Source of the DNA: Physcia stellaris
Lineage: Eukaryota > Ascomycota > Lecanoromycetes > Caliciales > Physciaceae
Direction: 5' to 3'
DNA: 64,000 nucleotides
Assembly: GCA_018902385.1 (NCBI GenBank)
Contig: JABSSW010000028.1
Location: forward strand, 248,001-312,000
Shown: positions 17,978 to 64,000 of the stretch, piece after piece
Layout: each line of letters starts with the position of its first letter
Position numbering within the stretch: the first letter of the stretch is position 1
Translations under genes and position numbers: made by a program
Notes under the pieces: model-generated
The model's input: only the letters and a program-made list of their open reading frames with translations
Databases searched by the model: none
Told to the model about the DNA's origin: nothing

Positions 17978-18176
17978 GACGATGAGGGTCACGATAGCTC
18001 TCGACTGCGGGCACGCGAAGTGAGGCTTCTTGAGTCACGTCCACCCCAAGATCCCGAGAGCCCCTAGACAGGAAGAGGTCGGCACAGTTGCCATACTAGG
18101 ACTAGCGCCATCTGAGGCTTCATACCTATCTTCTGCGTTCTGACAGTTTCGTCGACAGTGACAAGCCAACGTCAAG
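17978..18176. promoter_or_regulatory. Shared divergent promoter, tfb3 / URI
   Basis: There are 199 bases between two divergent start codons. Both products serve RNA polymerase II function (TFIIH subunit and an Rpb5-binding prefoldin), so co-regulation is possible but inferred. Confidence 0.6.
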
Positions 18177-38207: not shown

Positions 38208-38711
38208 CTGCGTCCCATGAAAGCGCAGCTATGGGACTTGCGTATACTATCTAAAGAAGGGTTATAAGCCAAGATCCGGAAGCCGCTGTAACTTTATTCT
38301 CTAACGGTGTCTACCTGGCTATGATAAACCCCCCTCCCCTTCTTCCATCAAACATCGGAGGTGGAACTCTTTCATTCTGTGAGCAGGATATGTGTCTTCT
38401 GCGCCCTTTCATATCATTCGTAGACGTCCACGTTTTGACTTGCGCCCATTCTGTGAGGGGATTTCCGGGCAAGATAACTAGGTAGCTTGTATGATTCGTT
38501 CCTTCCTCGCTCTTTTGCGAAATTAGTCCCCTCTAATCGGATGGCAATATCCCGGAAGCTCATGCTGGAGCGACGTGATGCTATTTCGGTGGTATTGGAT
38601 AAAGGCTACCTCCTAATTCGCCATTTAAATGACGTCGTCTCAAACCCCTTCGAAGCTTAACAAGTGACCTGAGCCCTCTTACGTATTAGGAAGTCTCCTG
38701 AATCCGACTTA
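38208..38711. other. Intergenic between convergent genes
   Basis: These are the 3' flanks of ric8 and dph2. I see no gene or repeat. Confidence 0.55.
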
Positions 38712-44368: not shown

Positions 44369-44574
44369 ATGTTTTTGGAACACCTTGCCCGCACTGGCAA
44401 TAGTACCCAACGCTTTCATGACTTCGAGAGACATATAGTTATTGCTGTTCAAGCACGCATACGGTTTTGGAGTTGAACTGGACTAAAACGGTCACACTGG
44501 ATATACCCCATGGCTGGCGGCTTATTTAACTTTAGTATCTAGTCGGATAATCTTCCGCGTGTCTGGAAAACCAT

Positions 44575-45235
44575 TCAATCAGGCAGTTGGAGGCCTCTCT
44601 CGGTATTTTCCACCCAAGTCTTTCCCCCTCCTAATTTTCTATCCGTTACCCCTTTGATTGCATTTCTGAAGAAATAGTTCCCATGCGCCGGATAACATAT
44701 ATCCTTTCCTACGTCTCCTTCACTCTGCAGCACCTCATCCCAGACACCTTCTCTGGTTAAGTCCTCGCTCTTAACCCTTTCCGTTCGATCTCCAATCAGC
44801 CATTTCTCATCTATACTTCCTACCAGTATCTCGATCTCGGTAGGAAATTCATCATGTCTCCAGCTTACGGCACTCCCGCATTTGCTACAGAAGCTACGGC
44901 GACCATGAGTGGACGAATGGAACTCGCTGAGCTCTGGAGGGAAGTTTGGCGTTTGAGTGCCGTCTGGTGCTGACCAGGTCACGTTCTTTGGTTCAACGGT
45001 AAGGAAAGGTGCGATCAGTGCGCCTGTCTGTTTCCTGCACTGAGTGCACTGGCAAGTGTGAGACTGCAAGGCCACAGCGTTCCCATTAGTTCTAGCTTTG
45101 ATTAACGTGACACTTGAATGTTGGGTTCACCTGTGGAGGCCATGAATTGGCAGTGGGGAAGTCAACGGTGTAGCGAATCTTGCCGCAAAGGCAGCCCCCG
45201 GTGATACTCTCATGTGCATAGCTTGAAGCCGCCAT
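44575..45235 (-). CDS. GFA / CENP-V-type zinc protein
   Basis: Exons 45235-45131 and 45063-44575 (67-nt intron) give 197 aa. It carries the zinc-binding cysteines of the glutathione-dependent formaldehyde-activating enzyme fold: GGCLCGKIRY, then CQCTQCRKQTG, then FCSKCGSAVSW. Family members bind zinc at two sites, but most fungal ones have no proven formaldehyde activity, so a substrate cannot be named. No targeting signal is seen. It sits head-to-head with ram2, with 421 bases between starts. Confidence 0.9.
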
Positions 45236-45656
45236 TTTGTAGTTATGATAGCCAGTTGCAGAGGATCTGTTGTACTGAGAATCCGTCTGGTCTTTGTATG
45301 GCTTGCCTTGTATTATGGCTTGCCTTGTATGAACCTTGGCCGATGAGTCAGGTCCGCTAGCTGCTGCTACTGCAAGGGACGTACGAGCACCGTGAATCAT
45401 TTCAGCTTCATTGCTTTAGCCTCTAGAAAGCTTCGCTAATCAATTTAACCCATTGGCTCACGGAGGTTGACCCCAACAGGCCCCCGCTTAGCCTCTCTCA
45501 AGCCCTATGACTTAGCCCTTATCGCTAGCGGCCGGGCTTGTTATCTTAGCATTGTCTAAAGTAAAACGTGGGGAAGATGTGCAGAGTGCAGACTGTTCGC
45601 TGCGATTATCAGGAGCCTCTGACCACAATCATTCTCCCGGTATCGACAGTGCGGTC
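45236..45656. promoter_or_regulatory. Divergent promoter, GFA-type gene / ram2
   Basis: There are 421 bases between divergent start codons. It contains a tandem duplication of GCTTGCCTTGTAT near 45301 and 45319, in what would be the upstream region of the GFA-type gene. Confidence 0.5.
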
Positions 45657-46742
45657 ATGGGTAAATACTCCGATTCCGATCAATGGCAGGACATTGTCCC
45701 AATCCCCCAGGACGATGGGGGACCGAATCCTCTTGCGGCCATTGCATACACGGAGGAGTACAGCGAAGCCATGTCATACCTCCGAGCTATCATGGCCGAG
45801 ACTGAAAAGTCCGAGCGAGCGCTGGCTCTTACCGAGGATATCATCCGTATGAACCCGGCACATTATACCGTGTGGTATGTCAACGGGAGCACCCAAAGGT
45901 TTTCACTAGCTAAATCATAAACCTCAGGCTCTACAGGGCGGAGGTCGTCTTCGCGCTAAAGAAAGACCTACTGCAGGAGCTCGAATGGCTCAATAAGATC
46001 TCCTTGAAATACCTGAAGAACTACCAAATATGGTTCGTCAATATCCGTTCCCTCCAACCTTCCCACCTCAGACCCCCAATAGATAGTCCTGACATTCCCT
46101 CCATACAGGCACCACCGCCAAGTAATCATGACCCCAATCCCCACCATCCCCGCCAACGAGCTCTCCTTCCTCAGCCTCATGTTCGAAAAGGATAGCAAAA
46201 ATTACCACGTCTGGTCCTACCGGCAATGGCTCGTCCGGCACTTTTCCATCTGGGATGAGGAGCTCCCTTACATCGAATCGCTCCTCGAGGAAGACGTCCG
46301 CAACAACAGTGTCTGGAACCACCGCTGGTTCGTCGTCTTCTCGCGGTATACGGATCCTACGACGGGCACCGGCGCGGACGCCGCTGCTGTCAAGGCGGAG
46401 CCGGAGATCGTGGAGCGGGAACTGGAGTTCGCGAAGGAGAAGATACGGCTGGCGCCGCAGAATCAGTCGCCGTGGAATTATTTGAGGGGGGTGGTGAGGA
46501 AGAGAGAGGGCGGGATCGCAGTATTGAAGGGCTTTGCGGAGGAATTTGCGGATCTGGGGAGGGAAGATGAGGTCCGGAGTAGTCATGCGTTGGATCTGCT
46601 GGCGGATGTGTATGCAGAAGAGCAGGAGAAGGAGCGGGCGGGGAAGGCGCTGGAATTGCTGGCGAAGAAGTACGATCCCATCAGGAAGAATTATTGGAAT
46701 TATAGGAGAGGGTTGTTGGGGTTGAAGATGGTGGAGGTGTAG
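45657..46742 (+). CDS. ram2: Protein farnesyl/geranylgeranyl transferase type-1 alpha subunit
   Basis: Ram2 is the shared alpha subunit of CaaX farnesyltransferase and geranylgeranyltransferase I, which lipidate Ras and Rho-type proteins. Exons 45657-45874, 45928-46032 and 46109-46742 give 318 aa. Prenyltransferase-alpha repeats are visible in order as HYTVWLYR, NYQIWHHRQ, NYHVWSYRQWL, NNSVWNHRWFV, NQSPWNYLRGV and KNYWNYRRGLL. The first two repeats are each created by a splice inside the Trp codon, which supports both introns; the second uses a GTTCGT donor. The start MGKYSDSDQW is preferred over the longer open frame upstream, which has no ATG. Confidence 0.93.
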
Positions 46743-47904
46743 TGGTTGCAGATCCTGTATTGCGAGTGTTTGTGAAGGCAAGGTAGATACCCAGCATTGG
46801 CCATTCATAGGCGTTCCAGGTAACGGGGAGCATGCTCATCTATCCTGTACGTGCAGCGTTCCATTACTACAAACCCATTCTCACGAATATCGATAGTCAG
46901 CCGCTCGTTAACAGACCGGCAGGTTTACCCATCTTCTCCAGGGTTCGGCGCCACGGTACGGTACCTTAAGGTTGAAAGCCCAACAAGCCCTTGACGTGGG
47001 ATAGACGTTTGAGAATATACTCAATATAGGCTCCATGTGACTTCAGTCGCAGATACAGCATAACAGGCCCCAAAATCCCAGCCCTAAACCCGTCCCCAAC
47101 GAAGCCTAAACTCTAGCCTCTTCACTTTCCCAAAGTGTTCAAAAGGATGGTTTCTCCTTCTTCGGAGACGTGAGCTTCATTGCATCCCTGGACGGTTCTT
47201 TTCAAATTTCATCCCTGTACATGTAGGGCGGTCCGAAAGTTGGTAGCTTTGGTAACTTTTCATAACCATATTTTGGTTTTTGGCTTTTCCCAGTCTCTTT
47301 TCGTGCTGTGCTCGTGGGGCAACGTGGCTCGACCCAGTTGGCTGTTCTCGCGTGTTCTCCCTCTGGATCTCTAATTATGGACGATGGGTCGAGCGTCCGG
47401 GATTGGATGGGAGATATGAGGATTGCTTGAGCGTCTTTTGATTGAGATTGCTTTTCCGAATGGTTTTTTTGAGGGGTTGACTGGGTTGATGCTCTGGGTT
47501 TCATATGGATTATTTTGAGCCGTTCCTTCTTGATGGAAAGAAAAAGAGAGAGAGAGAGAGACGGGGGGGGAGGGAGCCCACGTATCGCAGGTAGGGCCCT
47601 AGAAAAATTCATGAATGGCCCAAATTTGGATCCGTATATACATATTGAACACCTCCTGTATCACAACCGTCTTGGCCAGGGGAGGAAACCCCCGTGAATT
47701 ACTGTAGTCGCCGCCCTCTCGCAACAGACTGTCTTACGGGTGTATGTAACCTCGTAGGATCAAGACGACCATTTGCCAGTGGTGGGAATCTCATGAGTTG
47801 ATACTTGACGGTTGATGAGGTTGTTGGATCCTTTGACGTTCTAAAGACTGCGAGACTCAAGCATAAAGCATTGGAACCTGCTTTAGATTCTTCTCCAACT
47901 TCTT
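46743..47904. other. Intergenic between convergent genes, with an AG microsatellite
   Basis: An (AG)n tract at about 47545-47560 is followed by a run of eight G at 47563-47570. Minus-strand frames here mirror low-complexity sequence and are not supported. Confidence 0.5.
47545..47570. repeat. AG microsatellite plus G run
   Basis: An (AG)n tract of about 16 bases is followed by AC and eight G. It is a simple repeat, probably length-polymorphic. Confidence 0.75.
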
Positions 47905-49029
47905 TCAGTCTCCTCTCGCAGTGACCGTACTCGGCACTTGCCTGTCGTTTGTTGTCTGCTGTTCAATCCAGCCATACTCTTGCTTCCAGCCCATAAGCAA
48001 CTCCAGAGTGATGCCCACGCCGCCGCAAACCACGATTACCACCTTGCTCTCTTGTCTGAGCTGGGGCAACAACTTCTTTAGCCGACCATCGTAGCATACA
48101 GCAAGACTGACTCCACATGCCGGCTCCACCAACATCCGCTCATCATCTGCAAAACGCCAACAGCCCATCGCAGCTTCGGCATCGCTAAGGACAACACTCT
48201 TGACCGTATCCTTCTTGGACATCTCGAAAGCCTTCTCACAGACCCTCTTCGCACCCAAGGTCTTAGCTATGCTCGTAATCTCGTCCAGGCTGACAAGCTT
48301 CCCTGCCTTGACGCTTTCATTCAAGCTTTGAGCCCCGTCGGTCTCCATGGCAAGCACTTGCACATTTCCCCAACCCTCCCTTTCCAAGCCCATCATAATC
48401 CCCGAGAAGAGTCCTCCGCCACCAACACTGCAGACGATAGCATCCGGCGTCCCGGCACGCTTCTGTTCCATCTGATGCTTGACCTCCGTGACTAGCGTGC
48501 TGTGCCCCTCCCATACCATCTCCGCATCGAACGGAGGCACATAAACACCATCGGGGTCCTCAGCCAGAATCCTCTCCCGCAAATGGGTATCGGCTTCTTT
48601 CCAGCTGTCTCCATGCTGTATAACGTCGCTAGCGCCCGCGGCTCGGATTTTGGCTATTATGTACTCGGACGTCGTCCGCGGAACAACAATCGTAGAAGGG
48701 CAGCCAAGGAGCGAAGCGGAGGTGACGCAGGCGAGCCCGGCGTTGCCGCCTGAGGAGCAGTAGAAATGGGACTTGGAAGGTGGAGGGTGGGCTTCGAGGT
48801 GGGTGCGTTGGTAATTGCCTATTCCGCGCGATTTGAAGGAGCCGGAGGGCTGGAGGTTCTCGAGCTTGAGGAATATCCGGCTGTCGGGTTGTTAGTATAG
48901 GTAGTGGAAGAGGTGGCTTGTGATTTACCAGCCAGCGGCCTTGGATAGAGCTGCGGATTCGATCAGTGGAGTCTCTACCCATGGTATGGGAAGCCCATGT
49001 CGACCCCTCTGAACCGTCGTGGTGGTCAT
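47905..49029 (-). CDS. L-serine/L-threonine dehydratase (PLP-dependent)
   Basis: The enzyme deaminates L-serine to pyruvate and ammonia (and threonine to 2-oxobutanoate). Exons 49029-48929 and 48880-47905 (48-nt intron) give 358 aa. This is fold-type II PLP enzyme sequence: WVETPLIES at the N-terminus, LQPSGSFKSRGIG with the PLP-binding Lys, SSGGNAGLA (substrate Ser/Asn loop), and SVGGGGLFSGIMMGL (phosphate-binding glycine loop). Further on are EPACGVSLA and VVCGGVGITL (Cys/Ser near the pyridine nitrogen). It most resembles Cha1/SDS-type serine dehydratases. The start at 49029 (MTTTTVQRGRHG) is the first ATG in the spliced frame. It lies 731 bases downstream of the PAL gene on the same strand. 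Confidence 0.9.
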
Positions 49030-49760
49030 CCTGACTTATTGCTGAACGCGTTCATGAAGCAAAGGAGAAAGATGGACTTGGAAGGCGACCAAGGAAAGGA
49101 AGCAGAAAGGCAATGGAATGATTTTCGAAATACTCCATATTTGGAGTGCTTCTTACACTGCTCTGATCAAGAGTGTTTTCAAGCGGCGAATCAGGGCCTT
49201 GCCATAGTCTGGTCGATGAAAATGTGATCAATTAATGGGTAGAACCGTGGCGAGAGGGGATCTACTAAGGAGCACGTCCACGTCGTTGTCGACTTACCAA
49301 CATCGAGCAGTGTGTCTTTGTGCTTGCTACAGGTTTCACGACTGATAGCGCCAAAACAATGTCACCACTAAATGTTGGAGGAGCAAGAGAAGAATGCAAT
49401 ATCCAAGACATGAGCACGAGCGACAAATCTCCATATTATTAATAGCGCGAGTCAGGATATCTTGAACCAGTGAACATGCGTGCACGTATTGCCAGCATAT
49501 CATGAGACAGTAAAGGTCCAGACACCAGCGTGCGACTCCCAATATTCTAGACCGTCTAAAAAGCCGTAGTTGAGGATCTATTGTATCTGTACAAAAAGGC
49601 AGCAAGTGACCTTATTGCAAGCTCTACCCAATGAAAACCATAATGCTCGCTAGGCCGTTAGTGCTTGGACACCTATCGAGGTCCTTAAGACCGCACCAAA
49701 ACAGTTCTCCTTTTCCGATGATTCATTTCTCCAGGTGGAAAGGAGTGTCTTCGCCCGGCC
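49030..49760. other. Intergenic between PAL and the serine dehydratase
   Basis: This is the PAL 3' flank and the dehydratase promoter. I see no gene. Confidence 0.5.
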
Positions 49761-52521
49761 TCAAACAACGGATGGCTTGTTCGGCAAGCTACGCCCCACA
49801 TTACCGTCAATGGTACTTGCTTCAAACCCACTTTTGCTCTGGAGAAAGTCTTGATGGTCCGTCTCATCGGTAACCACGCCATTGGTGTGCCCGTTGTGCC
49901 CCGTGCCATTGATATAACCATTCTGCCCTGTGCTGTTAGTACCATTGACAGCTCTGTACGACTTAGTAGTAATTATTTTATCGGTCAGGCAATCCATCAG
50001 TGGCTCGTGGAGCTTTCCACTCCGTAGAGCCTCGTAGATTATCGCAATGTTGGAGCCAATCGTCCGCTTCCTCGAGCCGTCTGTTGCGAATACATCATTT
50101 GGTCCGGGGTGATCCTTCAACCCTTGGTGAAGCGGTATCCCGAGTACGTCGCGCACATAGGTGTATATCTTACGTGAGCCCAGTCCCAAGAATTCAGGCG
50201 TATCCTGCTTCTCGAAGAATCTAGCGCGGACCGACGAAAATGTTTCTGCAATGGCTTTTCGCGATGAGATTTTCCATTGAGTGATGGTCGCAAGAGTGGG
50301 GAGTGGCATTGAAGAAGTCGCCGCTTCTGGTGTGGCAAGCAGGAACTCGACGATGACACCAACGGTAAGATCCACGACACGATCATAACGGTCCTCGCTG
50401 TCTTTGTTCGTAGTCGTAAGCCAAGTTCCTTGCACTGATTCCCAGACGCGAAGATGAAGCTTATCAACATCTAGGTAGGAGAGAAACTGGCCGAAGACTT
50501 GACGACTGACAGCGTATAAGGCAGGTTCTAGTTCTTGGAAGAACGATATTTGTAGCACCCTTAAGTCGAGAGCTTGACAGACAGTGTAAATGTAAGAAGC
50601 GCTCATTAAGGACGCTAGTTCCACAGCAGCAAGGGTGTATCGTCCAGATATCAGGGCAAGAGAATTGATGGCTTGATTATGCATCTCTGCTGATCTGTAA
50701 CGAATACTTATTAGAAGAGAGTTCAAAAGTAACATTGGCGGTACTGATTTCCTAGAACAAGCCAACTGCGAGCTTAAATGGACACGGAAATTAAAGCAAT
50801 AAAAAAGGAAGCGGCTCGTGTAAGTTGTGCAACAGAGACTTGTCTGTTTGAATTGCATGAAGGATAATGGAGTTGACTTACTGGACATGACTGCTGACAG
50901 GATTGGCCAGGAATGCGAGTTCAGACATGTAAGATGCCATGCCAATGTCGACGCCTTTCATAGTGAATGACAGACTTGGCTCATCGGCAGCAAGGTTTGG
51001 AGGAAGCCCATTGTTCAGCATTGGGTTGATGAGCTCGGAAGATTGGGCGAAGAGCATTTTTCCAACCATCTGAAGACCTGACCGGGCCTTTTCCATTGCC
51101 GATGTGATTGACGCAGCCTGAAAATTGCCACCATGATGAGTTCTCCAATTCGAAACATCAAACAGAGGGTTGTCAGTGGTCGAATTCAGCTCGACTGTCA
51201 CTTGCTATTTGGAAATCTTGAGTCAGCATCATCGTCTTCCACGATCATTGAGCGACAGAGTATGTCTTTGATCAGTAAAATGCTTTAATGATGTTTGGAG
51301 AGGGGAATTGTTCGAATTAGATTATAATGTTTACCTCGTGTGCCAGTAGAAGATCTTCGAGCTGAGGCCCAATCCACTGTGGAGATGTCCTCAGCGCGTA
51401 GCGATCCTGATAGAGTGAGACTGAAGACTTTGTATCTCTTTCCTGATCGAGACCCCGAACAAGTCTAGAGCCCTGTAAGAAGTGACCAATGTTCCTCGAT
51501 GCCTCTACCTGTCCGCGATGGGGCCGAACTCCGGCGATAAAAGAGTCAAAACTGTCTGCAGTGCCAAGAAGAGCTTCGGATGCCATTGCAGTCAAGACCT
51601 GAGAAAGAACCATGATATGGTGTGTTTCGTACAGTGCAAGACTACCAACTGCTGCCGAGGTGGCAGTGCCGTTCATCAGCCCTAGGCCTTCTTTTGGCCC
51701 AAGGGTAATAGGAGCAATGCTGTTACGCTCAAGGGCCTCCTTGGCCGAGACAATACCGGAGGGTGTCTTGACCCAGATATCTGGATTTCCCGTGACAATG
51801 CCGGCGACGTATGAAAGAGGCGAGAGGTCTCCCGATGCAGAAATACTTCCTCTGAGGGGGATAATCGGCGTCAAATTCTCACGCAACACTGCAACGATTT
51901 TTTCGATTACCTGCAATGACACGGCGGAATGACCACGTGCGATCGTGTTGCTTCTCACGAGCATAGTTCCCCTGACCCAGTTTTCCGGCATAGCAGTGGA
52001 TTGAACGAATGTCTTCGTAGCTGAAGGAAGCCCACGGTCTGCTTTAGTGAGAACACCGAAATGGTGATGCTGGAGCAGAGCGGATTGCAGTGCCTCGTTC
52101 TGACTTGAACGAGTATCGGCGCTGCCTCCGAAACCCGTGTTGACCCCTGTTGAAAATAAGGACCGCACCCACAGTCAAGTCCACTCGAATGCTTACCATA
52201 TATAGTCCTTCCTTCTGCTATCAAGCCAGACAATAGGGCCACACTGTCGTCAATACACTTGATAAACGCCGGAGCTCTGCTGAGCGATGGTTGAACATCG
52301 TGGCTGATACGACAGCCTCGTCAGATTCGCTGTCAAGTCATTAGAGATTCTACGCACCAAGAGACAGCAACAACTGTGGGAACATCGAGGGATTCTCCGT
52401 TTATCTCGACATTTCCATCTCTTCGGATGTCTTGTAATTTTGTGTAGATCTGATGGGTAAGTAACGAATGTGTGGACGCAGTATTCACGTTGACAGATCT
52501 GTTCTCTTGAAGCGGAGACAT
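49761..52521 (-). CDS. pal: Phenylalanine ammonia-lyase (MIO enzyme)
   Basis: PAL converts L-phenylalanine to trans-cinnamate and ammonia. Exons 52521-52358, 52303-52197, 52146-51335, 51204-50882 and 50694-49761 join in phase to 779 aa. Diagnostic parts are GVNTGFGGSADTR, the MIO-forming Ala-Ser-Gly at about 194-196 in GSISASGDLSPLSYVAG, and GLMNGTATSAA. Further on are VELNSTTDNPLFD, THHGGNFQA and SAEMHNQAINSLALIS. The last 55 residues carry a Gly/Asn/Thr-rich tract (NGTNSTGQNGYINGTGHNG) that looks like repeat expansion. The first junction reads VAVSCHDVQPSL after a 54-nt intron ending at 52304, matching the ungapped family pattern. Whether it prefers Phe, Tyr or His is not settled by reading; the length and GFGGSADTR favour fungal PAL over bacterial HAL. 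Confidence 0.93.
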
Positions 52522-52835
52522 GCTGGACAGTCACTCAATTTCCCTAATTGTGACGAAGAACGCTACAGGTGGTCAAGTATGTCTCGAATAAGTCTGATCA
52601 ACGAGGAAGTTGTGGTTCATGAAGTATTGGCATGTTTAATCTGTCGAAAAGACAAGCTAAGATGATGCTCAATCTAGTTGGAAAGCCATCGATGGTGAAT
52701 GTGCCAGCCGTAAAAAGCAGGCTTACGATTTACAAATTGAAAGAGTCCACAATAATATCCAATTCATATAAAGACATAAAAGAAATATACGCAACATTTT
52801 TATACTAAGATCTTGAAATTTGAGGGGGGGGGAAC
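52522..52835. other. PAL upstream region
   Basis: There are 314 bases between the PAL start and the stop of the small gene upstream, so the PAL promoter is short or overlaps that gene. A run of nine G lies near 52824-52832. Confidence 0.5.
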
Positions 52836-53022
52836 TTATCGTTTGGCTTCGACAATAGCTTTAGCGCCGTTCTTGTTTCGAGGGCGAGTAAGCCTCGAGG
52901 CAGAAGCTGATGTAGATAGAAGTGATGAAATGGCGATCGTAATTTCAGTAGAGTTGGTAGAGAGCAACGCACCTACCTAGTAAGCCTTCTAGGCCCTGAG
53001 TGAAGTATCTTGTGGAAGTCAT
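52836..53022 (-). CDS. 38-aa spliced microprotein
   Basis: This gene is too short for ordinary ORF calling. Exon 1 (53022-52977) encodes MTSTRYFTQGLEGLL. A 70-nt intron (52976-52907) with GTAGGT donor and CAG acceptor follows, and exon 2 (52906-52836) encodes ASASRLTRPRNKNGAKAIVEAKR and stop (TAA). The total is 38 aa, basic, with no signal peptide. Evidence is an ATG, good splice signals, preserved frame and a sensible C-terminal composition. I do not recognise the family. It could be chance, since short spliced frames are easy to find; conservation would decide it. Confidence 0.5.
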
Positions 53023-54247
53023 GATGAAGGGTCCAGATCAACTTGTGCGGTGAGATTGATCGAGCAACAAAGAAGCTGCATCCAGCAAGTTCCTTGGACT
53101 AGAGAAGTTTTGGCCACCCTGCTTAAGGAGATGTGGACCTGAGAGATGTAAAGAGATTGATCGATGTGCATGAGATAGCATGCATGATCGATGGATAACC
53201 ACCCCTATCAAAGGTTTGACACGAGAACAGGGTCTTGACATAGTAGCCTACTTGAATACACCAACGATGTGGCTTCCAGAGATGGACGACCGAACATGTC
53301 CAATTTATTATTTTGATTGAGGTGCGGTTGAAAATTCGACTGATTTTATTTAAAGTAGTTTAGCTTGACTCTCACATAACCTCTAAAGTGCAACCTTATT
53401 GGAGGGCAGCATTCAAGCAGGCCAATCAGGGCCTGCTTATGTAAGTACCCTCTGGCTTGGCATTAGTCTTCTGCAAATATCCCCTTTTCTCTTATCTTGA
53501 GGTACCCCGGTACCTAGGTAGATCCCCGAACTCACGAAAGGCGAACGCGCCTATGTTCTGTCGATATGGCACAAAGGCGAGATCACACCGTACCATGACG
53601 ACGCCCCACAGACAAGCTATTCGGACTTAGTGGTTCCCTCAAGTTTGAGCGGCCGAGGCAAGTTAATCTCGAACCTTCTACCGAGTATTTGATTGCGGGC
53701 CATAGATGTTTGTGTACTCCGTACTCTACAGAGAAAAGGAACAATAATACGCGTTTGCGAGACCACCAATTGAGGCTGTATGCGTAGAGACAAGGGGGCT
53801 GGCCATGTACTATAGATCTCCTGGGGCTTCACGCTAAACGTAGAGTCATATCGCTTGCATCGAAGTGAGACAGACGAGTCATTTAGCAGAAGTGGTTGTG
53901 TCCAATTGCACTTACCACATGGGAAAAGACCGACGAAATACTACTATTTCCTTCAGGTTCTTGTACAATGACATCTCTGTTTACTATTCTGACAGAGGCG
54001 AGGTTTACTACCTTGTTCTAAGATCCCTTTCGTAATTCATAGGAAATTCTGATGGGTCGATCAGCTTCTTAGAAACGCTTTCCTTCCATGGCAAAATGGG
54101 TCAAATCCGCGGGACTTACTCGGTATGATAGAGTACCAATCATTACCAAGCACTACCGGTAACGTCCTTTCTTGGTGTGACAAATGCATATTCCCTTACA
54201 AGCCACCGTAAATTTTTACGTTGAAGTACATCCCTCTCGTGGAAAAC
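53023..54247. other. Gene-poor stretch
   Basis: No gene found. The sequence GGTACC occurs twice, two bases apart, at 53501-53514. The rest shows only short frames. Confidence 0.5.
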
Positions 54248-54531
54248 ATGCTCGCAAGCACTATTTCCGATCAGTAAAGTCAATCTAATTGATCTGGAAG
54301 GGTGGAACACATGCTGTCTCGCATAGCAGAGATTGTATAATAAAGACGGGCTTGAGTATCGTCTAAATTATCAGAGTATTAACATTCAGGGGTCAAAACG
54401 ATAAGGAAAGGGATGGAGCGCTCGGAGAAGCAGTGACGGATGCTGTTGGGCTCATGTGTTTGGAGGTTGGGAAGATGTGGCAGAAGACACCGGGTGAAGA
54501 GGATATTATGGAGGCAAGGTTGAAAAGCTAA
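54248..54531 (+). CDS. Possible 55-aa spliced gene or orphan terminal exon
   Basis: A 141-base open stretch (54391-54531) translates as a sensible amphipathic sequence ending VGKMWQKTPGEEDIMEARLKS and stop. It is preceded by a TTCAG acceptor at 54389. An upstream ATG at 54248 (MLASTISD) followed by a GTAAAG donor at 54274 joins to it in phase (116-nt intron). The product would be 55 aa. It may equally be the last exon of a decayed gene. I do not recognise the family. Confidence 0.3.
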
Positions 54532-54877
54532 CAAGCCCGACTGCTCACTTTCTCCTAAGCCGTGTTATAGTAGACCTCGCCGGATCAGAATTTTGCTTGC
54601 AAAATTGGTGAACTCGAAGACGTCTGAAAAGCTTGAGAAGTATTTTGTAGGTGTCCCCATTGAAGCTCCCACTTTGACTTATACATGAGATAAAGGTCTG
54701 GTGCTATGGTCACAGATTGTGTGCCAGTCCTGTATTAAGCTGGATATTGGTGGATTAGTACCTGAGTCTATAGTTGGTGGTGGTATCGACTTACGCTTCT
54801 TATTCAGACCGGTTTGCAATCTTTTAGCCCCTCTCAATAAATAGTCACCTCCTATATACTCCAGGCAGCAAGACTAA

Positions 54878-55570
54878 TTATAACTCAGCCAAACCCTCGC
54901 CTTCAACGTATTCCGTGCCGTAACACTCCCTTCTCAGTCCATCCATCCCTTCCGTATTCCCGTTCAAGAGCTTGCTCATGTATCCTTCAACCAACATCAC
55001 ATTGTCCGTCCATCGTTCAGCCTTGGCCTTAATTCCTTCAACTTGCTTTATCTTCCTTTCCACATCCTCTAGATCATTGTCGGCATAGCCAGCCAGCTCC
55101 TTCCTCAAAGCCTTGACTTCTTCGGACAGAACCTCTTCCTTAGTAATCAGCATCTCCCTCTCGCCCTCCTCTTCTCCATCAGCTCTTTGCGCCCTGGCCG
55201 CTGCTACCTTCTCCTCAAGCTCGCTGACAGCTTTCGTAGCACCCTCCAACTCGGCCTTTAGTTTCGCTAGCTCAGATGTGCGAAGAGCGGTTTCTTCAGA
55301 AGCGAACGACCAGTACCAGTTGCCGCTGCCGATTTTTTCGACATGGATTTTTCCATCATCGGACAGGGCTTGCAGATACTCTTTCACTTGCATGCCGTTG
55401 ATCGAGGCAACAGAAGGGAGGGATTTTTCGAGATCCTTGAGTGTGTGCGCTGTGAGTGAATCGCGCAGGTAGGAGAGGACGAGGGCTTGTTTTGCTGATG
55501 GTGGGAGTGATTTTGGTGCCTATGATACAATCAGAAAGAAAGACAGGGCACATGGCCATCAACGTACCAT
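54878..55570 (-). CDS. mnd1: Meiotic recombination protein Mnd1
   Basis: Mnd1 with Hop2 stimulates Dmc1/Rad51 strand invasion in meiosis. Exon 1 is the ATG alone (55570-55568). After a 48-nt intron, exon 2 (55519-54878) gives a total of 214 aa. The N-terminal winged-helix region reads APKSLPPSAKQALVLSYLRD, KDLEKSLPSVASINGMQVKE and DDGKIHVEKIGSGNWYWSF, which are typical of Mnd1. The rest is a leucine-zipper-type coiled coil (ELAKLKAELEGATKAVSELE, DLEDVERKIKQVEGIKAKAE) and the DNVMLVEGYMSKL tail. The length fits the family. The ATG-only first exon is inferred from the conserved MAPK start across GTACGT..TAG. Confidence 0.9.
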
Positions 55571-56182
55571 GGCTGGCAATTAGCTACCATTGGCTTGCCT
55601 TTCAGGAGCCTTACTAGATCTGTTCAATAATGGTTTCTCGGTGGATAGATTGAGATGACAAAATGGATTTAGGGTTAAGCGAGACGAATTATTTCACGAA
55701 GCCGAGAGGTTCAGGATGAGTAAAGCAGCTTTCCGATCACGGTTCTTTCGAGCAAGAAGATGCGAGCCGAGAAAATACGAATGGGAACAACGGTTTATTG
55801 AAACCATGAGATCATCAAGGAGATAGGACTCTGTTTCCATCGCCTATTGCGCTCTTCGACAACAATAACCGACTTACCGTACGATGTGATTCCTTTGACC
55901 AGTTGTCTCGGAAACTTTATGACAGGAAGCCGAAGCCACCTTGTCGGTAGGATGACCTTCGAGAACCCTTGGCGCTGTTGGGTTATTAGAATCCTTCTCT
56001 GCCGGACGAGAGTAAGATATACGAGCTTTGTCGCTAGAGTACATATACTTGTCAATCCCGGCTCTTCGGATTGGCATCAAAAAAGCCATACGTCAAGTAA
56101 ATAGGATAGTTACATTCCCCTCCTCAGGAAGCGACTCAATCAGGCTACGGTTAAAGGGTAATGAATTGACGTGGCACGTCGA
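55571..56182. other. Intergenic, no gene seen
   Basis: This is the mnd1 promoter side. Minus-strand frames of 71-86 codons overlap each other and have no support. Confidence 0.5.
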
Positions 56183-56865
56183 TCACTTAGGTGGGTGACG
56201 AATCTTCCTTTTCTTGTGTCTTCTTGTGTCTTTTGATTCGTTATCAGTTGATGGCTCTGCTTCCTCGGGTTCTTGAGCAGGGTCCAACAAGCCGAGCCTT
56301 TGAACGTCCGGTTCACCATCATGGTCCGAGATCTCCTCGCCTTCGACGAAGGCTAGGTCACCTGTTTCGCCAAGAATGTGTTCTGCAGCTTCTTCGAGCA
56401 AGATGCCGACAGCCAATAGTGCTGTTTCGTCCATGCTCCCAAAGCTGACATCTCCCTGAGCACCGAGGGCACTTTCGTAATACTCGGAAGCGTATATATG
56501 CACAGCTTTCAGCAAGTCAGTGTCAGGTAGTATCTGATCCTGTTTCAGATGTCTATGAGCCCAATATATATCATCCTCTTCATATCGGACAGGTGCGCGG
56601 CGACGTCGAAACAAAACTTCATCGGGCGGGACAGGAAGAGAGCTTGATGTAGCTATGTCGCGGGTCGTAGATGTGTATGGGGCATCAGGTATAAAGCGCT
56701 GAGTTGAGACGCGCCCTTGTATTGTCAGGTTGGTAGTCAATCGAACAGTCATGGTCCATCAAGCTCACCGGCAACTGCATCGTAGACGGTGGCGTTGCGC
56801 TTGCTAGAGCCGACAATAGTCTGGCCATTTTCGGCTAGGAACTCGCCTTCTTTAGAAGAGGACAT
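56183..56865 (-). CDS. Conserved-looking fungal protein, function unknown
   Basis: Exons 56865-56769 and 56715-56183 (53-nt intron) give 209 aa. It starts MSSSSKEGEFLAENGQTI style (Ser-rich, then GQTIVGSSKRNATVYDAVAG). The central part is ordered: FRRRRAPVRYEEDDIYWAHR, LLKAVHIYASEYYE, then DETALLAVGILLEEAAEHIL and GETGDLAFVEG. A disordered acidic region and a basic tail (RRHKKRKIRHPPK), probably a nuclear localisation signal, follow. The clear helical core with a DETALLA-type motif suggests a conserved nuclear protein, perhaps of the transcription machinery, but I cannot name the family. Confidence 0.75.
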
Positions 56866-57059
56866 GATGCTGTAGATTTGCTACAATTGTCATTTGATCA
56901 ATGAACCTTTGAATTGTCAGTAGAAACCACTGCAAATGAGAAGCTCGGACTTTACGGTTTTAAGTCTTCACCTAGAAACCTCAAGCTCTCCCCAAGAGCT
57001 CGATCTGCATTGTCAAAGTCGCTCGTAACGGAAGCACTAAAGCGCAAAGTATCTGATGT
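56866..57059. promoter_or_regulatory. Shared divergent promoter
   Basis: There are 194 bases between the start codons of the unknown nuclear protein and the CSA-like gene. Confidence 0.55.
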
Positions 57060-58523
57060 ATGAATTCATATCTCTTTGGGCGCGCGCTGGGTACTGTCAG
57101 TTCCCAATCGCTGCAGCGCGCCCATTGCACTGGACTTCTACATGCAATTCAACCGGCACCGGCAATTCGATTCGATTGCAGCGATGGCCAACACCACCAT
57201 GGTAGTCTCGAAAAGGATACTGTCTTGGCTCACAAGGCTGGCGTAAACTGCATCACCATCGACAAGTTCGAAGGAAGATAGTATGGGCTTCGCATAGCCA
57301 AATCCAAGTTGCAAGCTGACGTTACCAGTCTGCTTTCTGGAGGGGCTGAATCTTCAATTAGCCTATGGGACCTCGAGACCATCAGGAATGGTTCGAAGCA
57401 GGGTATCTATCATCCTATGGGTTCTGTTGAGAGGTACCTATGTGAATCCAGTTTAAATCGTTGTCTGCGCTTATCCGTGTACAGATCCAAGTCGACTCAT
57501 CAATTCGGGATAACCCATCTCTCCTTCTACCCTTTCGACTCCCTTGCATTCCTCTCCTCCTCGTACGACCACTCATTGAAGATTTACGACAGCCAGACTC
57601 TCGGTCCTTCAGCCTCCTTCGACCTACATTCCGTGGTATACTCCCATGCGCTCTCCCCTATAGCGGATCACTTGCTAGTCGCTTGCGCTACGCAGCATCC
57701 TGCGGTCAGGTTGGTGGACTTACGAACTGGTGCAGCCGCACACTCGCTATCTGGCCATCAAGGCGCGGTTCTTTCGGTGGCTTGGAGTCCGGAGCATGAC
57801 CATATCCTGGCTAGTGGAGGGTCTGACGGAACTGTAAGACTTTGGGATATTCGGCGCAGCGCAGGCTGCCTGGGTGTGCTCGATATGGAAGATTCTGTGG
57901 GAGTCTTGGGAGAGGATGGACTTGGAACGAAAGCACGACCACTGGGACAGGGTAAAGCGCACGTCGGAACTTGCAATGGCGTGGTCTGGACTGAGGACGG
58001 AAAGCACCTTGTTACTACCGGTCACGACGAACGAGTGAGGGTATGGCATACTGATAGTGGCGCAAACGCTCTATCTCATTTTGGTCCAATCATCAAGAAC
58101 ACAAACTCATCCACTCTTCTTCCTCTGATCGCGCCCGGATATGCCTCATCTCCTGGAGCTCATATCATGTTCTATCCCAATGAGAAAGAAATCTTAACTT
58201 TTGATCTTTTCGAAGGAACACTGCTCAAGCGGCTCCGTGACCCCAACGCTGCCTATTCCCATGGTAGTGGCAGTGCTGGACAGCGAAATGTACGAAATAG
58301 AATAACCTCATTGGCCTGGAGAGCCGCTGGTGATGTTGAGATGTACTCTGCCCATTCCGATGGGGTCATCCGAGCGTGGAAGCCTCGAACAGCAGAAGAG
58401 GTTGAAGCCGATAATGAGGAGGCGGAAGGCGCACAGGAAGAGAGTGAGAGTAGAAAGAGGAAAAGAGAAGCGCTTAATGACGTCTTCCGAGATTTGACAA
58501 AACAGAAGATCACGTTCACTTAG
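57060..58523 (+). CDS. CSA/ERCC8-like WD40 protein (Rad28 type)
   Basis: This is a WD40 propeller of the Cockayne-syndrome-A group, a substrate receptor for the Cul4-Ddb1 ubiquitin ligase in transcription-coupled repair. Exons 57060-57280, 57329-57433 and 57485-58523 give 454 aa. WD repeats read HKAGVNCITIDKFEGRYLLS with SISLWDLE, then SYDHSLKIYDSQTL and VRLVDLRTGA. Next come GHQGAVLSVAWSPEHDHILA with GTVRLWDIR, then TTGHDERVRVWH and HSDGVIRAWKP. The N-terminal segment FGRALGTVSSQSLQRAH fits the family start. The second intron (57434-57484, 51 nt) has no in-frame stop and length divisible by three; it is called because it interrupts the repeat between GSVE and KSTHQFGITHLSFYP. A basic tail ends SRKRKREALNDVF. 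Confidence 0.88.
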
Positions 58524-58547
58524 GCATCTTTGGCGGAAAAACTCCAT

Positions 58548-59681
58548 TCACATGATCTGCTCTATTCGCAGCAAGCCTTCGCAGGAACCAGCTTCTGCTT
58601 CAATCTGGCCTCCAGACTCGATTCGATTCTTCCACTTCCGAGCCTCGCCTCTGGCCAGGATTATGGTCATCCGCAAGATGGGTAAATGCGTTTCAGACTC
58701 TCGGAGTTGCACCGTTGAGCCATTCACATAGGAAAGAGAGGCCGTTCCCATTGGCGTGAAGTTCCATCGTCCGAAGGCCCAGTTGAGTATATAGTCAGCA
58801 GTCGTCTGTCCCTGACGCACCATCGCCGCCTCAGCGTTTCCTCCAGAGGAGGCTGGGGGACGAGAAGCCGCAACAATTGCTTTGATACGGTAAATCTCAT
58901 CCTTTGGAGCGGACAACAGGAAAGTCTCTAGCGTTTCAAGGTTTACTGCTGACGTTTTGCCTCCTTTAGATGATAGCGTGACGGAGAGTACTTCCACTTC
59001 GCTCTGGTGATCGGCCTTGTGTTTATGGCTATGCGCTTCTTGTACATCAAGTGGTGCCTGCAAAGTTATGTCTTTCGCCAAGGTGCTGTCGAGACCCAGT
59101 AGGAGACTCATATCAACACGTCCATGATCAGACTTAACATTAGCAATCTGAAGCTCGAGGTCTCCGACACGATCCAAGCAATCTTCGTATCTCCTCTCAT
59201 CAACATGCTCCCACTTGTTGAAAACAATCAGGTCTGTGTACCTGGCTTGCATTTTAGCTGTATAGCTCGTATCCTCATATCCCTTCCAATTCTCCACATC
59301 AATAACAACAATCACACCGTCGAGCGAATAACAACCTGTCTCCCTCCCCAGTCTATTAACCTCCATAGCCAAAGTCGCCGGAAAAGCACTTCCGCTGGTC
59401 TCAATGATGATGCGAGCTGGCTTGACATCGTTGCGGAGCGTCTCAAGGGCATCTCCAAGCTGACCAACGAGGTTGCAGCAGATACAACCGTTCAGGAGCT
59501 CTTTGACACCAGAGATTGATGACGAGGAAGCAAGCTGGGAGTCGATAGCTACATCACCGAACTCGTTCTTCAGAAGAGCGAGTCGGTAGTCCTTGGGCAG
59601 TTGCGGTATCAAATTCAGTATCAATGTGGTTTTACCCGAACCCAGAAAGCCTGTGATTATGGTGATTGGTATTGAAGTCAT
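58548..59681 (-). CDS. CobW/COG0523-family GTPase metallochaperone
   Basis: This is a single exon of 377 aa from the ATG at 59681. It has Walker A GFLGSGKTT, the metal-binding CxCC motif in LNGCICCNLVG, ETSGSAFPATLA (switch II region), FNKWEHVD (guanine-specificity, NKxD-like), a His-rich insert AHSHKHKADHQ, and a CobW C-terminal domain (RIKAIVAAS..NWAFGRWNFTP). The family delivers metals, chiefly zinc, to target proteins. It resembles Zng1, the activator of methionine aminopeptidase. However, the protein begins right at the Walker A region (MTSIPITIITGFLG) and lacks the N-terminal CPELVPI-like motif I expect of Zng1, so the partner is left open. The frame extends 40 codons upstream without resembling the family. 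It converges with the CSA-like gene, with 24 bases between stops. Confidence 0.88.
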   Translation of the reverse strand: MTSIPITIITGFLGSGKTTLILNLIPQLPKDYRLALLKNEFGDVAIDSQLASSSSISGVKELLNGCICCNLVGQLGDALETLRNDVKPARIIIETSGSAFPATLAMEVNRLGRETGCYSLDGVIVVIDVENWKGYEDTSYTAKMQARYTDLIVFNKWEHVDERRYEDCLDRVGDLELQIANVKSDHGRVDMSLLLGLDSTLAKDITLQAPLDVQEAHSHKHKADHQSEVEVLSVTLSSKGGKTSAVNLETLETFLLSAPKDEIYRIKAIVAASRPPASSGGNAEAAMVRQGQTTADYILNWAFGRWNFTPMGTASLSYVNGSTVQLRESETHLPILRMTIILARGEARKWKNRIESGGQIEAEAGSCEGLLRIEQIM

Positions 59682-59959
59682 TTTCTCAGTAAATTGATTC
59701 TCAGCGGTTTCGATTTCTGAATTTGCTCGGTATTTTTTTCTCGCTATTTCATAATTCAGATCTTCATTTTGTTTTTTTGTCGAGCTTAATCTGTCGAGCA
59801 ATACAGATAGAATTTACGAGCACAATGAAGTTTAGTCTCAGTTGGCTCTCAGCTTCTCACGCTTATTCCGATATTCCTTTGCCCGCTGACTCTGCAGCCA
59901 GTTCTGGGGTTAGGGTTCTATAATTTTTAGTGCGCGGGAAGCAAAGCTTGGCATTATTC

Positions 59960-62900
59960 TGATCAATAGAATCGCTGAATTTCTTGTTTTCGAATTGATT
60001 TATTAACATACATCGATTCGAAAATTTCAAAAATCGCATTTTTGATTTTCTAGATTTTCACATTTTTTTCGTTTTCATTGTCAGACATTTCATGAAGCTT
60101 TTTTCAACATGCATCGATATTGCAAATCGTCGTTTCGCATTTTAAACATGCAAAACTGATTTGAAAAAGACGAAAACGAATTCATTTGATTTTTTTATCA
60201 TTGAAATTTATTTCGATCAATGTTTTTCGTTTCGAAGTGACATTTTCATTTTGCTTGCAAAGTTCGCAATACTTTTTCTCGTTTATTTTTTTGATATGAT
60301 GATTAAATTTTTTAAACATTTTTTTCGTGTACATGATCATGTAATCGAACGTGTAAAAAAATGTTTTTTTCAACGAAACAAATGAATTTCGTCGATCAAC
60401 AGAATTTTCGAACAATTTGATTGCAATTGTGCGTTGAAAATCGAAATGAATCATAATGATTTTCGAATTCAAAAGTTTGTAAAATAAATAGAAATTGACT
60501 ACAGAAATCATTAAAAAATTGATTCATGATTTTCATCAAAATTTTCGATTTCTAATGACAATAAAAAAATAAATCGTTTTCATTTGTGCATTGTTGTCGA
60601 TATCATTCATGTGTTTGTTGTATTGTCGTATAAATTTTGAAAAAAAAAAAATTCGAAATATATATTTTTCGATGAAATATTCTTTCGTTTTATCGGATTT
60701 TTGTAAAATTTATCGTCGAAATCTTGAAAAATATGAATCGTAATGAAATATTGAATCGTGAAATTGTTCTGAAAAACAACACAAAACATTTGATTTTTTT
60801 GTGATCAACGTTTGCATTTGATTTTTTTAAAATTTGTTGTTGTAAATATTAACGTATTTCAATCAATTTTTTTCGTAAAAATGTTTCGAAATTTCAACAA
60901 CGATGTTGAATAATCGTTTCGAGCTTGAATCGTATCGATTATATCGTGATCGCGTTGTTTCAATTCGATGATCAATTTGACGCTGTTGAAAAAATTGTTC
61001 AAAATCAAAATGTAATTTTCGACGTTTTGATGAAAAATATTTTCGATTAATTGAGTAATCACGCGAGCAAAATCGAAAAATTGATTTTTTTTGAATACAA
61101 ATATGTTTAATTCTTGATTGATTTTCAAATTTGCAACGTCAAATTTCTTGAAAATGTAAAAAAAGTTCAGCAAATAACTATCGTCTGTTATATTATAATA
61201 TTTGTGATTTTTTTTATCGATTTTCACATTCAACTTCAAAATGTGTACATTACGAATTTTACACATGTTCAACGTTTCGTCAACAACAAATCAATTAGAC
61301 GAAATTCAATATTTCAAATTAGCGAAACAGAAATCGCTGTAAAAAAAATCGAATTTTCGATATCATTGAGAATTTTTGTCGTCGATATCATCGTTTGAAT
61401 TGTTGATTTTCAAATAACGTTTAATATTTTCGAATCGATTCAAAAACATAGCGTTTTTGACGATTTGTATGACAAATTGATCGTTATGAAAATTTCAATA
61501 CGTTTCATGACGTTTACAGTCGCAAAAATTCATAATTAACAAAACGTCAATAAAAACGCACATTTTCTGTTTTTCGTTGACGTTTTTTCAAAATCGTTGA
61601 ATTTGATTTTCATTTAATTTTTGAATTTTCGTTTCACGTCGAAAAATTGCATTGCGATTTGTATGTTTGATTAACAACTCGATGTTGATCATGTTGAAAT
61701 AAAAATTGAACAATTCATAAAAATCGTCTCGTATAGTTTCGGACACGAAATCAAATTTAACGAATTTTTTTGCAATTTGCAATAATGTATAATCGTTTGA
61801 AAAAAAGAATAAATCATGCAAAATTTGACGCAAAATTTTTTTCGAATCGATTTTTTTTTTCAGATTTTTATTGAATTTTCGAATTTCGAAAAATTTATTG
61901 CTTTTTTTTTTTCAGAAATTTCGCGTTCGTCAATTTCATTTTAATCAAATATGTTAATTATTATGATTACAAAATCGTCAAATATGCAAAAAATAAATAA
62001 ATAAAATGTAATGTGCAAAAATATCGAAATGAAAAATGTGAAAAAATCAAAAAAACAAACAAACAGTTTCATTTACATGTGTCAAGAACAATGTGTGAAA
62101 GAATGTAAAAAACTTGATTGTTAATTTTTCGAAAAAGTTTCGAAATATATATTGTAAAATTATGTGACAAATGATTTGTTTTTCAACGACAAGCACGTTT
62201 TTATTTCAGATTTCGTCATTGACAATCGTCAAACAGATTTTCGTCTCATAGTCGACAAGCTAGTTTGCAAATTTCTAACAATTTGTTTCAATCAAAATAA
62301 ACGACATCGTTTCGATGTCATGCTTTTTAATCATGTCAAACAATATTCGTGTTGATATTTTTAATTTTTTTTTTAATTATTGAAGTCGATGAAATCGTCG
62401 TATCAAAATATCAATTGCAACGACTGATGACGTGACTGAAAATGTGATCAATTCGACTGTGATTGACTTTCGAATCAAAGCAAATGATTCGATGTCAAAA
62501 ATTAACGAAAATGTCGTGTTCGATTTACGTAAAATGACAATTGCGAATCGTTGATTTGTTGATGATTGATTGACAAACGTCGACGTCGATATTGTGAAAA
62601 GTTTTCTAATCAATGAAATAACGACGAAAAATTTTGACGAAATGACAATTTTGATTAACGAAATGACAAAAGATTTTTGCAAACAATTTGACAAAAAAAT
62701 CGTAAAACGTAAAACGTTTTCGTAATTTTGTACAAAATTTTGAACGTCGTCGAATTTTGATAAATTTCGTCATTTATCGTATTGTGATTTTCAATTTTTT
62801 TATTTGACAAAATATTCATCGTCACGACGTTTGATTTGACGTTTGTTGATAAATTTTTCAATTTTTCATGATTTGATTCGATTCGTGTTTTTTTCAACGA

Positions 62901-64000
62901 AAACAAAATCTGATTGATTTGAACGTGAACGATTGAAAAAATCGTTTATTGATGAAAAAACAAATTTCAATTGAATTATGAATAAAACGAAATGTATACG
63001 TCAATGATTCGAAAATTTCAATCGATATGTCAGATTGTCAATTTTTTCAAAAATTTTGAAAAAATCGATATATTGTTGATTCAACTTTTTATCGAAAATT
63101 TCAGTTGTCGATATGTTGTAATCATGATGCAATTTAATCAATGCATAATCGTCAATTTTCATGAACAAAAATTGATGTTTGCGATCATAATAATATTTGT
63201 TGATCATTTGAACGAATGCAATGACATCAATCACTTCAAAACGAACACGAGTAATTGCATTGAAAAAAATTTTTGCGAAAAATTTTCGATTGTCAGTTGC
63301 GAAAGATTTTTTCAAATCGTCGATAAAATCAAATGTAACGAATTGACGAAACATGTTCAAAAATTGCAACGAAATGAATTCGTAAAATGTTTCATTGAAT
63401 GTTTTGTAAATAATGACAAAATGAAAATTGTTGAAATGACGTTGCAATTTGATCAATATTTTAAATCATTCAATTGAATTTTTCATTGTAATCAAATAAA
63501 ATCGAAAAACAATTTCAATTATTTGATTAATTCGCTCGAATTGATCGTCAATCTGAAAATAATATGCAATTGAATAAAGCAAACGAATTTCGAATTGTTT
63601 GAAAATTGTTGTTCACATATCAAACAGAAATTTGCGATCTCGATTCGAAATTATGATTTTCGATATATTTCAATCAACAACATTTAATTTGTCGATTAAC
63701 GCGATTTTTCATTCAACGACAAATCAAGTTTTTTTGTCGACAATGAATATGAATCGTTTCGTGAATTTGCAAATGACAAATATCGTGATATTCAATTCGT
63801 CACGAGAAACAAATAAAGTCAAAATGAAATTAATGATGATTGTATGAAATGAAATCGACGAAATTAATATAAATTGTAACGAATCATACGATGCGTGTTT
63901 TTTGATTTAATATATTTAACATTTCGAACAATGTTTCAAATAGTCACGCAAATAACGAAACAAATCGCGAATATAATATGAAACGAACATTTTTTCGAAA
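59960..64000. repeat. AT-rich, mutated repeat block
   Basis: Base composition changes abruptly about 280 bases upstream of the COG0523 start: the sequence becomes strongly AT-rich with long A and T runs and no intact gene. In five 60-base rows (starting 60001, 60421, 61441, 62821, 63661) I counted CC 0, GG 0, CT 1, AG 3, but CA 21 and CG 18, with TA 14 against AT 39. This is not what simple AT drift would give. Apart from the gypsy remnant at its right end, the contents are not recognisable. The open frames here are by-products of the composition. Confidence 0.85.
62720..64000 (-). mobile_element. Decayed Ty3/gypsy retrotransposon: integrase core to chromodomain
   Basis: Reading the minus strand from the right edge to about 62720, one frame keeps the shape of a chromovirus polyprotein. 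It has the integrase core (an SxRDRKFL block near 63650), then a degenerated AY..Q.D.Q.ER.NQ block near 63560. The HFNN and TFNE blocks follow near 63440-63390, and ISTTEIFDKKLNQQY near 63100. Next is the QSDFVFVE region near 62890 and a C-terminal chromodomain (RRDDEYFVK, then NLSKFDDVQNFVQ) ending near 62720. Expected Trp codons are stops, and Pro, Gly, Thr and Ser positions are often Phe, Asp/Glu/Lys, Ile and Phe. The element is dead and truncated by the window edge. Upstream reverse transcriptase and LTRs are not in view. Confidence 0.8.

Follow-up and report, generated by a model that had tools for sequence, protein, structure and literature searches.

A probable RIP-like mutation process directed at cytosines before pyrimidines in repeated DNA of the lichen-forming fungus Physcia stellaris

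How did a block of about four kilobases in the genome of Physcia stellaris come to lose almost every cytosine that precedes another cytosine, and most of those that precede a thymine? Physcia stellaris is a lichen-forming ascomycete (Physciaceae) whose genome was obtained from an axenic ascospore culture, with a published size of 46.57 Mb and a guanine plus cytosine (GC) content of 43.32% (PMC7513301). The window, the whole stretch of DNA analysed here, comprises 64,000 nucleotides of contig C28 (C28:248001-312000), and the genome searched comprised 43.97 Mb in 147 contigs. An earlier note on the window had proposed that the block at its right end was altered by a repeat-directed C-to-T process preferring cytosine before a pyrimidine (CpY) over the CpA of classical repeat-induced point mutation (RIP). 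We arrive at the same reading, with a probability of about 0.82: the block is repeated DNA that has undergone RIP-like C-to-T hypermutation at CpY on either strand. The CpY specificity is read directly from alignments of repeat copies, and the likeness to RIP is very likely.

The block is set off by a sharp border. The best change point falls at position 59984 (log-likelihood gain 454), where the density of CpY and its complement RpG (R, purine) drops from 0.251 in the preceding 3 kb to 0.023. On the plus strand the block holds 0 CC, 2 GG, 39 CT and 50 AG, where its base composition predicts 62, 77, 187 and 201, and full counts thus bear out the depletion that the earlier note had tallied by hand in 300 bases. 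The same counts agree with its remark that CA and CG are abundant and TA lies well under AT (CA 245, with 180 expected; TG 289; CG 214, with 69 expected; TA 206; AT 532). Its claim of a CpG surplus stands relative to the new base composition and falls as a rise, since the rate of CpG per kilobase is about that of the flank. Per kilobase of both strands, the flank (1-59900) holds 55.7 CC and 68.6 CT, the block (60061-64000) only 0.3 and 11.0, and the rates in flank and block are 67.6 and 66.8 for CA, 54.4 and 53.3 for CG, and 44.3 and 51.3 for TA. Conversion in silico of every CpY in the flank to TpY nearly yields the composition of the block: GC 0.244 with 67.6 CA, 54.4 CG, 44.3 TA and 135.0 AT per kb, compared with a real GC of 0.263 and 66.8, 53.3, 51.3 and 132.3 per kb. 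The classical RIP indices point the opposite way from classical RIP in each of the block's four 1-kb rows, with TpA/ApT at 0.34-0.46 and (CpA+TpG)/(ApC+GpT) at 1.22-1.85. DNA of the same mutated kind continues on C28 past the window end, in loci L035 (to C28:313500) and L039 (C28:314942-319869).

The direction and context of the changes are seen when mutated copies are aligned with a Gypsy copy of normal composition, L005 on C52 (GC 0.51). This copy has domains of RVT, RNase H and integrase zinc type but need not be intact, since its open frames lie in different reading frames and overlap one another. Over 3477 columns, 13 of them gapped, the copy L022 on C55 differs from L005 by 910 C>T (G>A being counted with C>T), one T>C and a single transversion. 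Cytosine was lost at 434 of 436 CpC and 450 of 461 CpT sites (several of the CpY counted as kept fall at alignment gaps), at 26 of 442 CpA sites, and at none of 409 CpG sites. The two strands are mutated alike (CpC 182/182 and 256/261; CpT 191/196 and 261/272), and in such copies the process has come near saturation. Pooling eleven copies (L011-L015, L017, L018, L022, L023, L026 and L029; L009, a weaker partial match of 650 columns and 60.6%, was left out of the tabulation) gives losses of 4264/4378 for CpC, 3992/4635 for CpT, 321/4419 for CpA and 144/4091 for CpG. At 8721 C>T, 276 T>C and 227 transversions, the pooled changes show the strong surplus of C:G to T:A transitions that characterizes RIP in the broad sense, and the C-to-T process with CpY preference that the earlier note had proposed is recovered; changes mainly at CpA, which would have spoken against it, are not what the alignments contain. 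A second Gypsy family (L006 and L007 compared with L046, L056 and L058) behaves similarly, with fractions lost of 0.90-0.98 for CpC, 0.82-0.90 for CpT, 0.05-0.12 for CpA and 0.03-0.12 for CpG, and the process extends to several Gypsy families and, as described below, to one duplicated host gene.

The resulting target order, CpC > CpT >> CpA > CpG, is unlike the known CpA-led form. CpA is mutated rarely and mostly as CpApY (CpAC 0.151 and CpAT 0.090 versus CpAA 0.045 and CpAG 0.030 in 10 copies), and CpG is essentially spared in the youngest copy. Decay of methylated CpG, in which CpG to TpG would dominate, is rejected by the 0/409 of L022, and the pooled CpG count points the same way. Slow spontaneous deamination of methylated repeats, with no active mutagenesis, would suit the varying degree of mutation between copies and is nevertheless highly improbable: because L022 carries 910 C>T beside one transversion and one T>C, its burst took almost no neutral time, and CpG, the usual hot spot, is untouched there.

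The identity of the neighbouring bases further narrows the kind of enzyme that might be responsible. The 5' neighbour has little effect, the fraction lost across the four 5' bases ranging only from 0.956 to 0.983 for CpC and from 0.825 to 0.898 for CpT. In 10 copies CCR became TCR in 1723 of 1852 cases and CTR in 7, so that it is the first C of the pair that is targeted. In CCCR the first C was kept in 14 of 205 cases, and in each of these the sequence was CTC, its second C having already turned into T; the context thus shifts during the process; hand arithmetic on C-runs suggests that re-reading of a shifting context fits CCC and fits CCT less well, and only the raw counts are claimed. Conversion of C to T on either strand could also be the work of a deaminase of the APOBEC/AID type acting on single-stranded DNA. 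The specificity of such deaminases lies in the 5' base, however, and with so little preference of that kind in these alignments their involvement is hardly credible. A search of the genome for PF08210 (APOBEC_N) found no match, its control matching nowhere either, so that absence is not established. Dependence on the 3' neighbour and hardly on the 5' one better fits an enzyme of methyltransferase type.

That the block consists of repeated DNA is evident from at least 42 genome matches to the block, the block itself counted (40 were scored of 133 candidates). The parts of the block and its flank are collected in the table below.

Features of the window, with coordinates counted from its first nucleotide
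Feature	Coordinates	Strand	Remarks
Unmutated flank	1..59983		GC ~0.49; baseline for dinucleotide frequencies
Repeat unit A	59872..62079		~2.2 kb; another copy, L040 on C24, is bordered left and right by unmutated DNA
Mutated block	59984..64000		GC ~0.26; CpC/GpG nearly gone, CpT/ApG depleted, CpA/TpG/CpG at flank level
LTR-like repeat	62080..62290		starts TGTCAAGAAC; right boundary approximate
Part of Gypsy-like LTR element	62080..64000	-	~7.7 kb element continuing past the window end

In the window copy of repeat unit A, the first ~110 bases inward from the edge are free of mutation, and a telomere-like motif, GGGGTTAGGGTT, lies within this unmutated edge at 59906-59917. Among the matches listed for the long terminal repeat (LTR)-like sequence, 13 long ones begin within 14 bases of its start point, 12 are stand-alone short matches of 176-228 bases, and five pairs are spaced at 7.47-7.51 kb, the spacing from which the size of the Gypsy-like element is taken. 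Its reverse transcriptase (RT) and RNase H lie just outside the window (L035 5617-6996, minus strand, equivalent to window coordinates 64117-65496), with 6 stops within the matched stretches, and six Gypsy reading frames compared with the window by tblastn gave no match inside it at E 1e-4. Low GC and a sharp border might also mark AT-rich foreign DNA, organelle DNA or a satellite with no mutation process at all. This origin is rejected and can for practical purposes be dismissed: mutated copies align directly to normal-composition copies of the same elements, and the assembly holds the many matches to the block noted above. Comparison of a Gypsy protein with viral contigs returned no relatives, and comparison of the block with a plasmid collection no match.

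The mutated state is widespread in the genome. We examined 584 segments, each of 500 bases, taken from the window and from fetched loci, seven loci that overlapped others or the window being left out. The fetched loci had been selected for being repeats or for matching RT, and hence do not form a random sample. GC is below 0.35 in 365 of the 584, and only 3 of these 365 keep CpC above 10 per kb. None of the 365 passes the classical RIP test (TpA/ApT >= 0.89 and (CpA+TpG)/(ApC+GpT) <= 1.03), which 7 of 185 segments of GC 0.45-0.60 do pass; together with the pooled CpA and CpC counts, this rejects classical RIP. Over their whole length, 46 of the 56 loci L009-L064 have CpC below 3 per kb. In a random sample of 20 places of 300 bases from 33 contigs, 5 have GC below 0.35, each with CpC at or below 3 per kb, from which a rough estimate is that a quarter of the genome is mutated. 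One of the five, L084, retains CpT at 55 per kb; apart from this and the three exceptional segments, AT-rich DNA lacking the depletion, named in the earlier note as grounds for abandoning its proposal, is not the pattern found.

Conversion at CpY also has distinctive consequences for reading frames. Applied in silico to the open reading frame of the Gypsy copy L007, it produces 10 TGA and no TAA or TAG and removes Pro, Gly and Trp, whereas conversion at CpA produces 17 TAA and 29 TAG and removes Gln, His and Trp. CpY conversion of this Gypsy frame, which lies outside the window, yields the codon pattern that had been described for a gypsy remnant in the block. As predicted, stops in the RVT_1 matches of the genome are mostly TGA (250 TGA, 33 TAA and 3 TAG; 140 of 150 matches carry a stop, 150 having been scored of 527 candidates). 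When a mutated RT reading frame was compared with the protein database, 79 proteins matched. In 61 of them Pro+Gly is at or below 2% (mean 0.14%) while Gln+His+Arg still makes up 8.2%, and the remaining 18 have a mean Pro+Gly of 9.6%; the query, itself low in Pro and Gly, biases this set. Identities are mostly 40-84%, and therefore such sequences exist outside the P. stellaris assembly, which suggests that the CpY trait may be common to other genomes. Several of the low-Pro/Gly proteins (among them P0243, P0253, P0261 and P0273) contain 1.5-2.7% Trp, perhaps through translation of TGA as Trp by the gene caller. The artefact to be expected from this process is a peptide free of Pro and Gly and broken almost only by TGA, which could be mistaken by gene callers for the product of a genetic code in which TGA encodes Trp.

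Which enzyme might read the 3' base in this way? The RID and DIM-2 homologues that the earlier note had recommended looking for are present: a search with PF00145 gave four matches at three places, a gene of DIM-2 type on C3, a canonical RID on C5 and a second RID-like gene on C6. The C3 gene is a 1118-aa open frame whose closest solved structure is 9bap (E 4.6e-188); its similarity to the structures 9bap and 9baq (both at E about 5e-188 and best over residues 329-1014 of 1118) is long enough to place it provisionally in the DIM-2 family. We take 9bap and 9baq to be DIM-2, the depositor's name being only 'DNA (cytosine-5-)-methyltransferase'. The C5 gene has the motifs PCQ and EQT, an annotated protein of 932 aa and G7Y79_00005g016670 as its best match. 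The C6 gene has PCQ and EET, with later motifs readable across two intron-like gaps, and by its PF00145 domain and these motifs it would belong to the RID/Masc1 family, for which the catalytic triads were taken from PMC6709928. By sequence, then, RID-family genes, a component of RIP in the broad sense, appear to be represented twice. A rapidly built tree with 57 rows (the three P. stellaris genes and 54 of 240 listed proteins; support as SH-aLRT, the Shimodaira-Hasegawa-like approximate likelihood ratio test, with no bootstrap) places the C5 gene in a 20-row clade with RID of Usnea, Dirinaria and Heterodermia (support 100) and the C6 gene in a 23-row clade that includes Heterodermia (99), with long branches outside these two clades. 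A Chromo-shadow family search gave no match, its controls matching nowhere either, so that absence is not established, and a Pre-SET search gave one match, at C37, its controls likewise matching nowhere.

Under the proposed mechanism, a RID-family methyltransferase-like enzyme would act on cytosine before a pyrimidine in repeats paired before meiosis, by analogy with Neurospora, and mutation would probably be spread over several rounds. The divergent C6 gene is the candidate for this role, with the C5 or C3 gene possible in its place. Like the C6 gene, Botrytis RID carries an EET triad (PMC6709928), and Botrytis is among the CpT fungi of PMC4352252, a coincidence that provides only a lead. Alternatively, the canonical RID itself may have moved from a CpA to a CpY context, with the C6 gene unrelated: the C5 gene is of the RID family, with the motifs and the 932-aa protein given above, and re-analysed N. 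crassa crosses display no k-mer shift without rid (PMC12543289). It sits, however, inside the ordinary RID clade, and the divergent clade is the odd part, so that such a switch appears unlikely. DIM-2 might instead drive the mutation, given the DIM-2-type gene on C3 and a reported methylation preference of DIM-2 for CpT (PMC13297926); according to the same source DIM-2 acts on all CpN, whereas in P. stellaris CpC mutates faster than CpT and CpA hardly at all, which makes DIM-2 a still less probable agent.

A further observation concerns the C6 gene itself. L088 (C41:14300-16100), compared with L065 1261-2182, is a truncated duplicate of this gene with sequence upstream, at GC 0.31, and it has lost 87 of 101 CpC and 72 of 130 CpT, alongside 30 transversions and 20 reverse transitions. 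By its substitutions it is a host-gene duplicate mutated by the same CpY process, and it recalls the amplified, mutated dim2 of Zymoseptoria tritici (PMC8016269). A C19 fragment in the C6-gene comparison (133 columns) lacks CpY-type mutation. In its widest form, our tentative proposal, to which we give somewhat less than even odds, is that in a lineage of lichen-forming fungi a divergent second RID with an EET motif and a CpY target took over RIP from a CpA enzyme, erasing CpC and CpT from repeats and leaving nearly only TGA stops, that its own gene was duplicated and one copy mutated, and that several related genomes share the trait.

Several observations weigh against the reading of the block as RIP-like CpY mutation or against parts of it. 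The case rests on comparisons within one assembly, and nothing links the C6 gene, a candidate, to the mutation. L088 also lost 24 of 82 CpG and 18 of 123 CpA, and in a third, more diverged family (L019 versus five copies) the fractions lost are 0.19-0.24 for CpA and 0.12-0.22 for CpG, with 0.75-0.82 for CpC and 0.62-0.72 for CpT; because the L019 comparisons carry 184-321 transversions and L088 its 30, these CpA and CpG losses are partly ordinary divergence. Comparison of L035 with L036 shows the window copy carrying TpG opposite CpG at 49 sites and CpG opposite TpG at 8, which suggests that a slower, separate CpG loss also exists in old blocks. Targeting of repeats may be incomplete: the repeated block and the duplicated host gene are mutated, yet the similar Gypsy copies L006 (C5:1165021-1168497) and L007 (C12:58812-62288) are unmutated although mutated relatives exist, and so is the flank at 58501-59983, which is repeated on C101 (L036) and C118 (L037). 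L006 and L007 differ by 75 C>T, 58 T>C and 42 transversions in 3477 columns, and have either escaped the process or arrived recently, or are alternative haplotypes; over an alignment of about 1,490 bases, the flank is separated from its highly similar copies L036 and L037, both on small contigs, by 9 and 33 substitutions, and these copies are either duplicates that escaped or haplotypes. C101 and C118 differ from the window in too mixed a way for the mutation to be dated.

RIP-like mutation outside the CpA context has precedents that weaken the novelty of the P. stellaris process. The cited papers describe a predominance of CpT over a secondary CpA in Magnaporthe and in one strain of Botrytis (PMC4352252), CpT change that overshadows CpA in alignments of Tad1 from N. 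crassa and that has no CpA counterpart in the short rDNA repeats of Stagonospora (PMC2621366), a dominance of CpT where RIP-capable fungi were analysed by alignment (PMC7882544), and both CpA and CpT as targets in Anisogramma (PMC10998396). These reports share the CpT target with P. stellaris, which differs in that, relative to a parent copy of normal composition, CpC comes first, CpT next, and CpA is nearly spared. The CpG-biased RIP-like mutation of Tuber, Microbotryum and Rhizoctonia is likewise C-to-T hypermutation, and differs from the intact CpG of L022. In a published table for Rhizoctonia solani AG8, mutated sites are denser at CpC than at any other dinucleotide (one per 214 bp), where the text claims a CpG bias (PMC4014442), a further CpC-first precedent; those changes are heterozygous single-nucleotide polymorphisms in genes and repeats alike, unlike the changes in P. 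stellaris. In Monilinia, CpC-to-TpT double changes occur inside classical CpA RIP. Together with the Rhizoctonia figure, these are the nearest cases among the records listed in an open-access literature search, none of which described a CpC-led, CpA-sparing, saturating RIP, and 'RIP' and 'repeat-induced' are absent as whole words from the Physcia genome paper (PMC7513301).

Strong mutation of repeats is also known from the lichen-forming ascomycetes Cladonia rangiformis and Endocarpon pusillum. Cladonia resembles P. stellaris in its sharp borders, RID and DIM-2, although its mutated DNA peaks at ~16% GC (PMC12542154), under the ~24% floor of CpY-only conversion; CpA, CpC and 'dinucleotide' are absent from the text of that paper. 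Endocarpon repeats have classical indices of 1.47 and 0.70 (PMC3897900), unlike those of P. stellaris. The new element is thus a CpC-led, CpA-sparing, near-saturating form of RIP-like mutation. RIP of N. crassa and most Pezizomycotina shares with it the C:G to T:A changes in repeats, on both strands and with sharp borders, and the RID and DIM-2 homologues. In Neurospora, however, CpA is the main target, TpA/ApT rises and CpA falls, whereas in P. stellaris CpA and TpA are nearly unchanged and CpC and CpT exhausted. The P. stellaris repeats are a nearly complete counter-example, scored negative by the classical indices in 365 of 365 AT-rich segments, and therefore index-based RIP surveys may have missed lineages; with a canonical and a divergent RID in one genome, this fungus offers a natural comparison for what sets the context of RIP and how RID acts.

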